This document shows positions 14,980-26,384 of a DNA stretch of 39,041 nt, one piece after another. The position numbers were made by a program, and so were the translations under genes. Source of the stretch: a virus; the IMG/VR virus record IMGVR_UViG_3300036715_001154, positions 1 to 39,041 of that record; one strand, given 5' to 3'. The notes under the pieces were generated by a model. The model did no database searches, had not been told where the DNA came from, and saw nothing but the letters and a program-made list of their open reading frames with translations. The first letter of the stretch is position 1. Every line of letters starts with the position of its first letter.

Positions 14980-15061
14980 CCAACTCTCATTGCCTAGCGT
15001 GCTGGGCAATGGGGGCAGAGCAATTTCGCACTGTCCACGTTCAATTCACATCGAGGAAATC

Positions 15062-15682
15062 ATGAGCAATACTACGACGCCCAAGGCAGCAAAAACCAAG
15101 GTCATTCCCACTATCTCGGCTGACATTGACGAGGGGATGACAACCCTCACGATCGCCTTCAGCGACGGCACTAAGCTGGAGGTGAAGGTCGATGACCTCA
15201 CCCCAGAGATTCAGGCCTATGCCATGTTTCATGGCCTGAAGCAGAAGCTCGTCGATGCAGGGGCAATTACCCATAGCAAAGAAACCGGACGGTCGGCCAC
15301 GTTGGCCGACAAGAAGAACGCCGTGACTGAGATTTTCAAGCGTATCACCGGACCCGAGGGGAGCTGGAACAAGGTCCGCGAGGGCGCGAGCGCCTCGGGT
15401 GGCCTGCTGCTCAGGGCATTGTGCGAGGTTTACCCGAGCAAGACGGTGGAGCAACTCCGCGAGTGGCTCAAGAGCAAAACTGACGACCAGAAGGCGGCAC
15501 TGAGGGTTTGCCCTGAGGTCGCCGCCATCATCGCACGGCTGAAGCTGGGAGCCGCGAAGGGCGCCCCCGACACAGACGCCATGCTGGCCGAACTGGACGA
15601 CAAGGGCAAGGGTGAGGGTGAGGGTGAGGGCGACGACAAGGGCGACGACAAGGGCAAGGGCGACGACGGAGCGACGGAGTAG
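15062..15682 (+). CDS. Early protein, paralogue A, with acidic low-complexity tail
   Basis: The start is ATG 15062 (206 aa) behind GAGGAAATC; an upstream in-frame extension to 14990 lacks a ribosome site. The N-terminal half contains a beta hairpin (T-T-L-T-I-A-F-S-D-G-T-K-L-E-V) followed by H-G-L-K-Q-K-L. The C-terminal half is helical (L-L-L-R-A-L-C-E-V-Y, then K-A-A-L-R-V) and ends with P-D-T-D-A-M-L-A-E-L-D-D. A Gly/Glu/Asp/Lys tail encoded by short DNA repeats completes the protein. The protein at 17458-18225 shares this whole plan. The family is common in phages of Pseudomonadota and uncharacterised. Confidence 0.8.
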   Translation: MSNTTTPKAAKTKVIPTISADIDEGMTTLTIAFSDGTKLEVKVDDLTPEIQAYAMFHGLKQKLVDAGAITHSKETGRSATLADKKNAVTEIFKRITGPEGSWNKVREGASASGGLLLRALCEVYPSKTVEQLREWLKSKTDDQKAALRVCPEVAAIIARLKLGAAKGAPDTDAMLAELDDKGKGEGEGEGDDKGDDKGKGDDGATE

Positions 15683-17457: not shown

Positions 17458-18225
17458 ATGAGTGACAAGAAGTCGAAGGCCAAGGCCGAGCCATCGACCA
17501 GCAATAAGGCCAAGGCCAGCAAGGCGCTCAAGCCAGCGCAACAACTCCCCGTAACCCAGGTCAACGAACAAGCGCCGAGCGCTGCAGTTCCGACCACTAC
17601 CCAAAAGGAACCCAAAATGACTGAAGCCACCACTCCCGCCAAGGCGAAGAAGCCCGAGACCGTTGTCGAGACCGTCAAGATGCTGAACGGCACAATCTGC
17701 GAATTCGCCGGCAAGCGCAAGATGATCAAAAGTACCAGCATTGTCGATGGCAAGGTCGTCGTGACCCTGAACTTCCGCAACGGTGAGACCCGCATCTTCA
17801 CCGTGCCTGCCAACATGGTGCTGCAATTCGCTGGCCACGGCGCCGAGCAGAAGCTGGGAGACGAGACAGCCGGTGTTGAAGACATTGATGACGCGCTGTT
17901 GGCTGTCGATGACCTCATGGACCGCCTGAACAAGGGCGAGTGGGGCATTCGCCGCGAAGCCGGCGGCATGAGCGGGACGAGCGTGTTGATGAAGGCGCTC
18001 TGTGAGCTGTACAGCAAGCCCGTAGAGGCGATCAAGGCCTTCTTGTCTAACAAGACCCAGGCCGAGAAGCTCGCGCTGCGCAATAACGCGAAGGTCAAGT
18101 TGATCGTCGATCGCCTCGAGGCTGAGAAGGTCAGCAAGAAGGGTGCCGTCGATACGGACGCGCTGCTCGGCCAACTGGACGCGCTCGGCGCAGCGCCCAC
18201 AGAGGAACCCGCAACGACCGCTTAG
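17458..18225 (+). CDS. Early protein, paralogue B, with basic N-terminal extension
   Basis: The start is ATG 17458 (255 aa) behind GGAAGGA. An N-terminal Lys/Ala/Thr/Pro-rich extension (residues ~1-65) is probably disordered and looks able to bind nucleic acid or protein. Residues ~70-245 match the plan of the protein at 15062: a beta hairpin (V-V-V-T-L-N-F-R-N-G-E-T-R-I-F-T-V), F-A-G-H-G-A-E-Q-K-L-G-D, then V-L-M-K-A-L-C-E-L-Y. The segment K-L-A-L-R-N-N-A-K-V and the terminal V-D-T-D-A-L-L-G-Q-L-D complete the match. The role is unknown, but two copies with separate promoters argue for high early demand. Its stop codon sits in the loop of a 7-bp hairpin. Confidence 0.85.
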   Translation: MSDKKSKAKAEPSTSNKAKASKALKPAQQLPVTQVNEQAPSAAVPTTTQKEPKMTEATTPAKAKKPETVVETVKMLNGTICEFAGKRKMIKSTSIVDGKVVVTLNFRNGETRIFTVPANMVLQFAGHGAEQKLGDETAGVEDIDDALLAVDDLMDRLNKGEWGIRREAGGMSGTSVLMKALCELYSKPVEAIKAFLSNKTQAEKLALRNNAKVKLIVDRLEAEKVSKKGAVDTDALLGQLDALGAAPTEEPATTA

Positions 18226-18324
18226 GCGGTCGCCGGCACTCAGCTCCGCCGCAAGGCTTGAGCTGACGAGAACCCTGCGTAGTGGGGCCAACAGCCGATG
18301 GGGCGCCACTCCAAGCGGCTGTTG
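18215..18324 (+). ncRNA. Three consecutive perfect stem-loops after paralogue B
   Basis: Stem 1: CGACCGC/GCGGTCG (18215-18232, 4-nt loop made of the stop codon region). Stem 2: TCAGCTC/GAGCTGA (18240-18266). Stem 3: CAACAGCCG/CGGCTGTTG (18289-18324). They have perfect stems of 7, 7 and 9 bp, with no T-run after any. The stretch has no gene. It may be a structured 3' region, a processed small RNA, or protein-binding DNA sites; 'ncRNA' is tentative. Confidence 0.45.
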
Positions 18325-18340: not shown

Positions 18341-18467
18341 ACACAGTTTTGCTCAACAATAGCAATAACTTGAGGTTTTTGGCGGTGCAATACGGTATAA
18401 TATAGGAGTCGCAAAAATGCGGCACCGCGTATCAAGGCGCGCTAACCTTGTAAACTGGAGTGGCACT
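18341..18467 (+). promoter_or_regulatory. Promoter/leader element, copy 1
   Basis: About 127 bp shared with 19079-19209. It has a conserved box (AATAACTTGAGGTTTTTG), -10 TATAAT (18396-18401), then TATAGGAGTCGCAAAA. A hairpin CAAGG/CCTTG (18433-18450) comes next, and TAAACTGGAGTGGCA supplies the ribosome site of the gene at 18468. The TTGAGG is 20 bp from the -10, too far for a normal -35, so an activator may be needed. Confidence 0.7.
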
Positions 18468-18695
18468 ATGACGTTAATCGTCGCACCATCGCAGTTTGCG
18501 TCGAAAGCAAAACTGCAAGAGAACCTCAACTCACCAGAGGGCGTTTACATCGAAGACCCCTCAATGTTCGGTGTTAATCAGACTGGCCCGAGCAACGGCA
18601 AGCCGGTCGGCTGGTCCGAAGTTGTCACCAATCATCCCCTGCGCACGAAGTTCGCCAAACTCGAACGGACTGCCGACGGCTGGAAGGTGCGCTAA
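18468..18695 (+). CDS. Small early protein (75 aa), unknown function
   Basis: Two starts compete: ATG 18417, with AGGAG eight bases upstream, and ATG 18468, with GGAG seven bases upstream. I choose 18468 because the sister leader at 19079 keeps only the second site. The protein contains N-S-P-E-G-V-Y-I-E-D-P-S, then W-S-E-V-V-T-N-H-P-L-R-T-K-F-A-K-L-E-R, a pattern I associate with small uncharacterised phage proteins ending in a beta hairpin. It is followed one base later by the DUF4313-like gene. Confidence 0.7.
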   Translation: MTLIVAPSQFASKAKLQENLNSPEGVYIEDPSMFGVNQTGPSNGKPVGWSEVVTNHPLRTKFAKLERTADGWKVR

Positions 18696-18696
18696 C

Positions 18697-19026
18697 ATGA
18701 AGTACCTCGGCGCCTTCAAAAGCAAACGCTTCGGACTCGTTGAAGTCTGGTCCGGGCATTACGATGGGCCGCAAGGCCCCCTGGCCATCCAGCTCACCAG
18801 CGACGATGGCGAACCGCTCGCAACCCTGAGCGTCAACATGCACAAGCCGCATTGTTCGCAGGACTCGCGCGAGCTGCCACCAAACTGCTTCTACGCTAAG
18901 ACCTGGAGCGAGAACGAAGGCCTTGCGCGGGAGGCAATTGACTCCAGCTTCTTTCAACTCCGGCCCGACCTGCCCACGGCAGCCAGCGGCTACGTCACGG
19001 CTGAAGCCTGGGAGCTGCTTGAATGA
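18697..19026 (+). CDS. DUF4313-like phage protein
   Basis: ATG 18697 lies one base after the previous stop, with AAGGTG upstream. The 109-aa product opens M-K-Y-L-G-A-F-K-S-K-R-F-G-L-V-E-V-W, then G-P-Q-G-P-L-A-I-Q-L and E-P-L-A-T-L-S-V-N. K-T-W-S-E-N-E-G-L-A and a final aromatic strand complete it. This combination matches the DUF4313 family of small early phage proteins. Its function is not known; the compact beta fold has no catalytic motif. It is transcribed with the 75-aa gene from the leader at 18341. Confidence 0.75.
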   Translation: MKYLGAFKSKRFGLVEVWSGHYDGPQGPLAIQLTSDDGEPLATLSVNMHKPHCSQDSRELPPNCFYAKTWSENEGLAREAIDSSFFQLRPDLPTAASGYVTAEAWELLE

Positions 19027-19127
19027 CAACACCACAAAAACTCGAAACCGTAGCAGATGCGGAGATTGAACTGCGGCGCACAGTTCTGCTCGACAATGAC
19101 AATAACTTGAGGTTTTTGAGGGTGTAA
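19023..19127 (+). CDS. Tiny ORF (34 aa) overlapping leader copy 2
   Basis: The ATGA overlap (19023-19026) couples it to the previous stop, and it ends at TAA 19125-19127. The product opens MTTPQKLETVADAEIELRR and ends N-N-L-R-F-L-R-V. Its last 16 codons lie inside the duplicated leader block, and the matching part of copy 1 is open in the same frame (V-L-L-N-N-S-N-N-L-R-F-L). Either the duplication began inside this ORF, or the ORF is only what the promoter sequence happens to encode. Confidence 0.35.
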   Translation: MTTPQKLETVADAEIELRRTVLLDNDNNLRFLRV

Positions 19128-19209
19128 TACGATACAATATAGGAGTCGCAAAACCCGCGACAACGCGATACCAGGGCGCGAATCTCCTGGTAAACTGGAG
19201 TGGCAACAA
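19079..19209 (+). promoter_or_regulatory. Promoter/leader element, copy 2
   Basis: Second copy of the 18341 element. It has the same AATAACTTGAGGTTTTTG box, -10 TACAAT (19133-19138) and TATAGGAGTCGCAAAA. The hairpin is TACCAGG/CCTGGTA (7 bp, 19169-19192), and TAAACTGGAGTGGCA supplies the ribosome site for the gene at 19210. The inner five pairs vary from copy 1 (A:T replaced by C:G) while keeping the stem. Confidence 0.7.
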
Positions 19210-19426: not shown

Positions 19427-19996
19427 ATGACCCAACAAGAATACAACCCTATGGCCCAACTCGAAGAGATGGAAGAGCCAGTGGAAGACCTCAATGAAGA
19501 GGTCGCCGTCGAGGCACTGATCGCCACCCTCAAAAGCACGGACAAGTCCGACCCCGACGACCTCTCAGAGCTGGATACCCTGCTCGAAGAGTCTATGGAG
19601 CAGCGGCGCTTCGCACAGGAAGCCCACAAAGCTCGCGAGCGTGTGCGCAGGGGCAACCAGTCCCCGGAAGAACGCGAGGCTGACCTTCAGCGCATACGCG
19701 ACTGGGCGGACAAGCACGAATGGGAGGCGATCGCTACGGCTGGAGTGTTCAACCGCTTCAACTGCGCCTGCGGCAACTCCAACACGGTGTTCGACTGCTT
19801 GATGATTGAAGAGCGCCACAAGACCGACAAGTTCGCCAAGCGCTGGATCAACCTCGAAGTCGAGCGCAGGACCACGCCGAGGGTTGGTGAGCCGCCGAAG
19901 GTCACCGTGGTCCGCGAGAAGCAAGTCTCCTCGTGCGACAAGTGCGCACATCCGAAGGGATGGCGCTTGGACGAAGCCGTTATATGGAAAGCCTAA
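19427..19996 (+). CDS. Early protein (189 aa) with probable zinc site
   Basis: ATG 19427 follows the previous stop by one base. Residues 1-60 are strongly acidic (E-E-M-E-E-P-V-E-D-L-N-E-E). Residues ~85-100 form a charged helix. The C-terminal part has C113-x-C115 (F-N-C-A-C-G-N-S-N) and C170-x-x-C173 (S-S-C-D-K-C-A-H-P), a plausible zinc site, with C124 between. The acidic N-terminus could mimic DNA or bind a basic partner. The family is unknown to me. The next gene starts 15 bp after its stop. Confidence 0.65.
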   Translation: MTQQEYNPMAQLEEMEEPVEDLNEEVAVEALIATLKSTDKSDPDDLSELDTLLEESMEQRRFAQEAHKARERVRRGNQSPEEREADLQRIRDWADKHEWEAIATAGVFNRFNCACGNSNTVFDCLMIEERHKTDKFAKRWINLEVERRTTPRVGEPPKVTVVREKQVSSCDKCAHPKGWRLDEAVIWKA

Positions 19997-26257: not shown

Positions 26258-26364
26258 AGTCGTGGGGGTTGGAAGTTTCCGCTTGTTGCCTACCGAGGGC
26301 AGCTTCAACTCTCTCCCCTCCTCCTATGGAGCTGCTTTCGGGCGGACTTCCCCACGACTCTTTT
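26258..26364 (+). ncRNA. Large structured element, 30-bp stem
   Basis: The outer stem is AGTCGTGG, GGAAGT and CCGC (26258-26282, with 5- and 2-nt bulges) against GCGG, ACTTCC and CCACGACT (26342-26359). The inner 12-bp stem is 26293-26304 against 26330-26341 (two G-U pairs if RNA) and stacks directly on the outer stem on the 3' side. The loop is 25 nt and T4 follows at 26361-26364. It may be a structured RNA, a second terminator or a replication-related DNA hairpin. There is no ORF through it with a ribosome site. Confidence 0.55.
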
Positions 26365-26384
26365 ACAAGAAACTTGGAGTGGCG

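Follow-up and report, generated by a model that had tools for sequence, protein, structure and literature searches.

A candidate anti-Shine-Dalgarno RNA in a phage lineage, with duplicated leaders as its probable targets

The window analyzed here is a 39-kb IMG/VR phage contig (IMGVR_UViG_3300036715_001154, 39,041 nucleotides) with terminase, portal, capsid, and DNA polymerase genes. It carries one promoter and leader twice, ahead of two genes that do not resemble each other, and this raises the question of what the repeated sequence is for.

The duplicated promoter/leader block

The block occurs as two copies of about 130 bp (18341-18467 and 19079-19209), each containing a box, a -10 element, TATAGGAGTCGCAAAA (18401-18416 in copy 1, 19138-19153 in copy 2), a hairpin, and TAAACTGGAGTGGCA. 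Both copies match their description in the first-pass annotation, and the duplication is real. Identity between them is 86% over 81 nt; none of the differences falls in the box, start region, or Shine-Dalgarno (SD) stretch, and TAAACTGGAGTGGCA is identical in both leaders. Exact matches to the 18-base box, AATAACTTGAGGTTTTTG, are confined in the window to 18364-18381 and 19101-19118 (chance 0.01). The elements of the block and the genes behind it are the following.

18363..18381, + strand: promoter box, copy 1, CAATAACTTGAGGTTTTTG, which includes an ACTTG element
18396..18401, + strand: -10 element TATAAT, copy 1
18433..18450, + strand: SD-proximal leader hairpin, copy 1, CAAGG (18433-18437) with CCTTG (18446-18450), 8-nt loop
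18456..18464, + strand: extended SD TGGAGTGGC, copy 1, predicted target of the anti-SD loop
18468..18695, + strand: g184, 75 aa; its homologue is a predicted target in relatives L004 and L062
18697..19026, + strand: g187, 109 aa, start adjoining the g184 stop
19100..19118, + strand: promoter box, copy 2
19133..19138, + strand: -10 element TACAAT, copy 2
19169..19192, + strand: SD-proximal leader hairpin, copy 2, TACCAGG (19169-19175) with CCTGGTA (19186-19192), 10-nt loop with AAUCU
19196..19204, + strand: extended SD TGGAGTGGC, copy 2, predicted target of the anti-SD loop
19210..19425, + strand: g192, 71 aa, stop adjoining the g194 start
19427..19996, + strand: g194, conserved gene with a weak Lsr2-like PHROG match; its homologues are the commonest predicted targets in relatives

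Sequence comparison bears out the earlier statement that the two genes directly behind the copies (75 aa and 71 aa) are mutually unrelated. Neither protein has a Pfam or PHROG family match, and a scan with both as bait found no relatives; homologues of g184 were later located by synteny. Because the stop of g184 adjoins g187 and the stop of g192 adjoins the start of g194, the duplicated leaders probably control two two-gene operons, g184-g187 and g192-g194.

The best available -35 element in each copy is TTGAGG, 20 bp upstream of the -10, which confirms that no -35 stands at a normal distance. The sigma-70 arrangement (TTGACA-like -35, 16-18 bp, TATAAT-like -10) is thus absent from the window copies; it is present in 31 of 33 promoters from relatives, where the homologous promoters have TTGACA or TTGCAT at a distance of 17 bp from the -10, in most cases immediately preceded by ACTG or CTTG. 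The window copies retain ACTTG without a -35, and an activator acting on them is possible, if unproven. Four good TTGACA/TAnnAT promoters elsewhere in the window (14707, 17340, 21865, and 25624), three of them with CTACAATAAAA, lack ACTG/CTTG and therefore form a class different from the duplicated promoter. In relatives L065, L080, L012, and L007, long phage-specific palindromes run across the -10 region of the g194-operon promoter (GGGTCCAATTATG..TATAATTGGACCC in L080); these are likely operators of a phage repressor.

The same block was sought in related phages, as had been proposed. The exact block was not found among 34 relatives from a helicase scan, the box-plus-TATAGGAG pattern has no occurrence in IMG/VR, and a DNA similarity search of a phage collection with the window returned no match. 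Target leaders with an SD-proximal hairpin are present in the relatives.

A stem-loop complementary to the extended SD

The shared TAAACTGGAGTGGCA appears from its sequence to be more than an SD, a point the first-pass annotation overlooked: it is the predicted target of an anti-SD loop at 18305-18313. Directly upstream of the block, the 3' region of the conserved phage gene g174 is predicted to fold as a stem-loop and probably encodes an antisense RNA.

17617..18225, + strand: g174, conserved phage gene whose 3' region contains the anti-SD hairpin; a longer frame starts at 17458
18289..18324, + strand: predicted anti-SD stem-loop, arms CAACAGCCG (18289-18297) and CGGCTGTTG (18316-18324), loop ATGGGGCGCCACTCCAAG (18298-18315), supported by its fold and, in relatives, by where the loop lies and how the arms pair
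18305..18313, + strand: GCCACTCCA in the loop, exact reverse complement of the extended SD TGGAGTGGC of both leaders
26373..26384, + strand: CTTGGAGTGGCG, complementary without mismatch to loop bases 18304-18315 over 12 nt and lying shortly before the GTG of a 39-codon frame

The 9-bp stem-loop sits between the g174 stop (18225) and promoter copy 1. On the plus strand, the 9-mer TGGAGTGGC occurs at 26375 as well as at each of the two leader SDs (chance 0.6 per window, both strands). Three sites in the window are complementary to the loop: the two leaders and 26373-26384. The window hairpin has no U-tract terminator, its folding z-score is only -1.87 to -2.5, and the pairing energy of the loop with leader 1 is modestly better than that of shuffled loops, 2.8% of which do as well. 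Directly upstream of the third match, at 26258-26365, lies a long inverted repeat, GTCGTGGGG..CCCCACGAC around CTCCCCTCCTCC, followed by a T run; it may be another structured RNA.

The structure model of the g174 protein is of moderate quality (pLDDT 76.5), with one viral relative, and its comparison with the PDB gave no trustworthy match, the top hits (TM 0.17) being discarded. A g174 paralogue lies at 15044-15682 in the window (tblastn, 69 bits) and is followed by a terminator; in relatives, a g174 paralogue is itself a predicted target of the anti-SD loop.

Loops, SDs, and leader hairpins in related phages

The helicase scan yielded 34 phage loci and a g174 profile 80 more; 82 loci whose g174 3' regions are non-redundant were kept. 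For each phage we compared the 160 nt after g174 with the SD windows downstream in the same phage and recorded the longest complementary stretch, with the windows of other phages as control. The complement averaged 7.63 nt for own windows and 6.36 nt for swapped ones (82 loci; 0 of 20,000 permutations). Sixty hold-out loci, unused for discovery, gave 7.90 vs 6.44 nt (again 0 of 20,000), and one locus per motif family (n=12) gave 10.25 vs 6.72. The sense orientation of the same region has no excess (5.98 vs 5.97); an excess at first seen in this control was gone once windows overlapping the region were omitted. Inside the g174 coding sequence there is likewise no excess of complements to SDs. 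Targets of at least 8 nt number 68, spread over 38 loci with up to several in one phage; among them are 23 g194 homologues, 6 g174 paralogues, and 3 g184 homologues. Some of those counted are overlapping frames or chance matches, and gene starts were assigned by simple rules. No match of this length was found in 30 of the 82 loci, one of them L038, the g174 relative with the top score in the scan.

The complements are associated with hairpins. In 42 of 52 cases the best complement lies in an apical hairpin loop, compared with 18% of control positions, and the arms flanking it have a mean longest pairing run of 9.0 bp, compared with 5.6 bp for swapped flanks (0 of 20,000). Loops chosen by stem strength alone, with SDs ignored, match own targets over at least 7 nt in 108 cases, vs 47 after permutation (maximum 82). 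The hairpins of relatives have a mean folding z-score of -3.75, and a U-tract lies within 80 nt of the hairpin in 31 of 41 loci; no promoter belonging to the hairpin RNA itself was identified. The complement extends on average 4.0 nt outside the purine SD core. By eye, most relatives have a strong stem-loop downstream of g174, and the loop complements the SD of that phage's own following operon. The sequence differs by phage: CTGGAGACTAA in L004, GGAGGCGC in L011, GGGAGGCGAA in L014, CTGGAGGCTACCCA in L062, GGAGTTAGGA in L087, and GAGGCTCAA in many loci. In 12 phages the loop AATTGAGCCTC is near-invariant (TTGAGCCTC invariant) while the stems are unrelated between phages, each being internally complementary. 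At the level of sequence, base-pairing between loop and SD is strongly supported, as is the view that loop and SDs have changed together across dozens of related phages.

Three further features of these loci were recorded. In L004, L037, L039, and L045, the anti-SD stem has a conserved GTTAGTACTT motif at the end of its base, opposite a GTACGAA-like sequence, which suggests an internal-loop motif or a processing site. In L016, L028, L030, and L032, short palindromes (for example GGATTAC..GTAAT; AATCCGACCG..CGGTCGGATT) are dispersed across intergenic regions in both orientations, in the manner of repressor or stoperator sites; they were set aside as a separate feature. At 80-259 of L037 (MW202489.1), a 59-aa phage ORF is annotated as the class D beta-lactamase OXA-58, probably a misannotation, as it is far too short.

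The earlier case for RNA had been built on the SD-proximal leader hairpin, said to keep its stem while a base pair changes. The stem is indeed kept, as TACCAGG/CCTGGTA in copy 2, with one true compensatory pair between the copies, A-U to C-G. Taken alone, however, this pair, which is a single covariation event between two sequences, is weak evidence for RNA structure, because the leaders fold only about one standard deviation below shuffles (RNAfold z-scores of about -1 to -1.8 only) and copy 1 prefers another fold: in its minimum-energy structure, CGCG/CGCG and 5' GUCGCA/UGCGGC hairpins replace CAAGG/CCTTG. The difference in loop length, 8 vs 10 nt, argues against the hairpin as a DNA dyad. 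Selection on leader RNA structure is supported nevertheless, though the two copies contribute less to this than the relatives do. Of 71 target leaders, 35 have a strong hairpin no more than 20 nt 5' of the SD; among 894 other SDs the number is 161 (p 1e-8). An AAU-type loop is present in 23 of those 35 hairpins, compared with 12 of the 161 (p 6e-13). These p-values are somewhat optimistic, since the counts include a few near-identical phages and overlapping frames. Mean folding z-scores are -1.98 for target leaders in relatives and -0.39 for control leaders. In the annotated Microcystis phage Mel-JY34 (L120, 480-2060), which has a g174 homologue, the next leader has an AAU-loop hairpin, GGGCAATTTCGCGCC, but no clear anti-SD match by inspection.

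A small regulon, rival readings, and known systems

We consider it likely that a co-evolving phage anti-SD RNA, most probably acting in trans, represses the translation of a small regulon and that the duplicated leaders are its targets. The block is best read as a target module that combines a promoter, a structured leader, and an extended SD. The loop would pair with TGGAGTGGC, covering the SD of both leaders, and probably with the third site at 26373 as well, and this pairing would keep ribosomes off the target SDs. Accumulation of the g174 transcript, or of an RNA processed from it, would then shut down translation of the regulon, and the SD-proximal hairpin would probably hold the SD open for the loop or bind a protein. 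That the hairpin RNA exists as a transcript, that it acts in trans, that it is a repressor and not an activator, and what role the leader hairpin plays are all points that we infer from sequence patterns.

Complementarity to the SDs of several separate mRNAs, as expected of a trans-acting base-pairing sRNA, is found both in the 38 loci with targets of at least 8 nt and at the three sites in the window. Trans action is favored because there are several targets per phage, because some lie upstream, and because U-tracts so often follow the hairpin. The main rival, which we judge unlikely, is that the hairpin works only in cis, in read-through transcripts from g174, where it masks the SD of the operon that follows and leaves that operon to be translated only from its own promoter. 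In the window and in most relatives the hairpin stands after g174 and before the promoter of the first target, which agrees with such insulation, as does the missing U-tract in the window, which taken by itself fits trans action or cis insulation alike. Yet insulation does not account for targets that lie 1.6-4.4 kb upstream of the hairpin or several kb downstream, for the U-tracts of the relatives, or, in the window, for copy 2 at about 890 nt and the third site at 8 kb from the hairpin. It is very improbable that the leader is regulated by its own hairpin, as a thermosensor or protein site, and that the upstream complement is incidental; the AAU-type loops enriched in target leaders and the one compensatory pair would suit that reading, which can coexist with the anti-SD RNA, but the complement statistics are overwhelming across phages and independent of leader structure. 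Finally, the box could be the binding site of a repressor or activator, and the duplication might merely put two operons under one transcription factor; as a full account this is scarcely to be credited. In its favor, the box is identical in the copies, with an imperfect dyad (CAATAAC-N5-GTTTTTG) and no -35 at normal spacing, and relatives keep ACTG/CTTG beside the -35. Against it, L038 has GCAATAACTTGAG but lacks the other half of the dyad, on which ground the box as a DNA dyad was rejected, and the extended SD and loop complement are left unexplained. The reading could still be the transcriptional half of the main explanation.

The anti-SD RNA could also be part of something larger, a proposal we regard as tentative and rather doubtful. 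The phage lineage would have a private, fast-evolving SD code, in which a master anti-SD RNA in the g174 3' region matches a phage-specific extended SD on repeated promoter/leader modules, and a phage protein, possibly that of g174, would recognize a second RNA element, the SD-proximal hairpin with its AAU-type loop, and so unite both RNAs. That element also looks similar to many anti-SD loops on their 5' side.

A few cases of antisense control of phage translation are known, each with a single target and most of them in temperate phages. The natural variation of dozens of environmental phages, in which loop and SDs appear to change together, is in effect a compensatory-mutation experiment. 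Searches of the open-access literature turned up no phage family with anti-SD hairpins that co-evolve in this way, and the sequence patterns point to a family of phage RNAs, not described before, whose base-pairing controls translation. If this is true, it is a new RNA family absent from Rfam, the regulons of uncultured phages become predictable from sequence alone, and the family provides a set of orthogonal RNA/SD pairs.

Several known RNAs share parts of this arrangement. The alphaproteobacterial "cuckoo" sRNAs also have an SD complement in a hairpin loop, but theirs is a fixed CCUCC-type loop acting on host mRNAs, whereas the loop here is phage-specific and runs past the purine core by 4 nt on average. 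Like sRNAs derived from 3'UTRs, the hairpin lies just 3' of a coding gene, often with a U-tract; unlike them, it belongs to a phage genome, and the U-tract is missing from the window. The sar RNA of P22 and the OOP RNA of lambda are likewise small phage antisense RNAs that repress phage mRNA (PMC12197685). They pair with one neighboring or overlapping transcript, whereas here the hairpin loop matches the SDs of separate operons. The C4 antisense RNA of P1, P7, and P4 (RF01695) is similarly a phage-encoded structured RNA, whose loops in P1/P7 pair around the ribosome-binding site of the antirepressor mRNA (PMC12197685). Rfam gave no hit at gathering score in the window or in 24 relatives, the C4 covariance model included. 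In contrast to C4, the RNA proposed here has several predicted targets per phage, a position 3' of g174, and loop and SD sequences that change together between phages. C4 controls antirepressor synthesis and prophage immunity. The predicted targets here are g194, g184, and g174-paralogue genes; there is no sign of a role in prophage immunity, as a search of bacterial genome contigs confirmed no g174 homologue. The anti-SD RNA would thus work like C4, its nearest known counterpart in mechanism, while standing outside the C4 class because its model and gene context differ.
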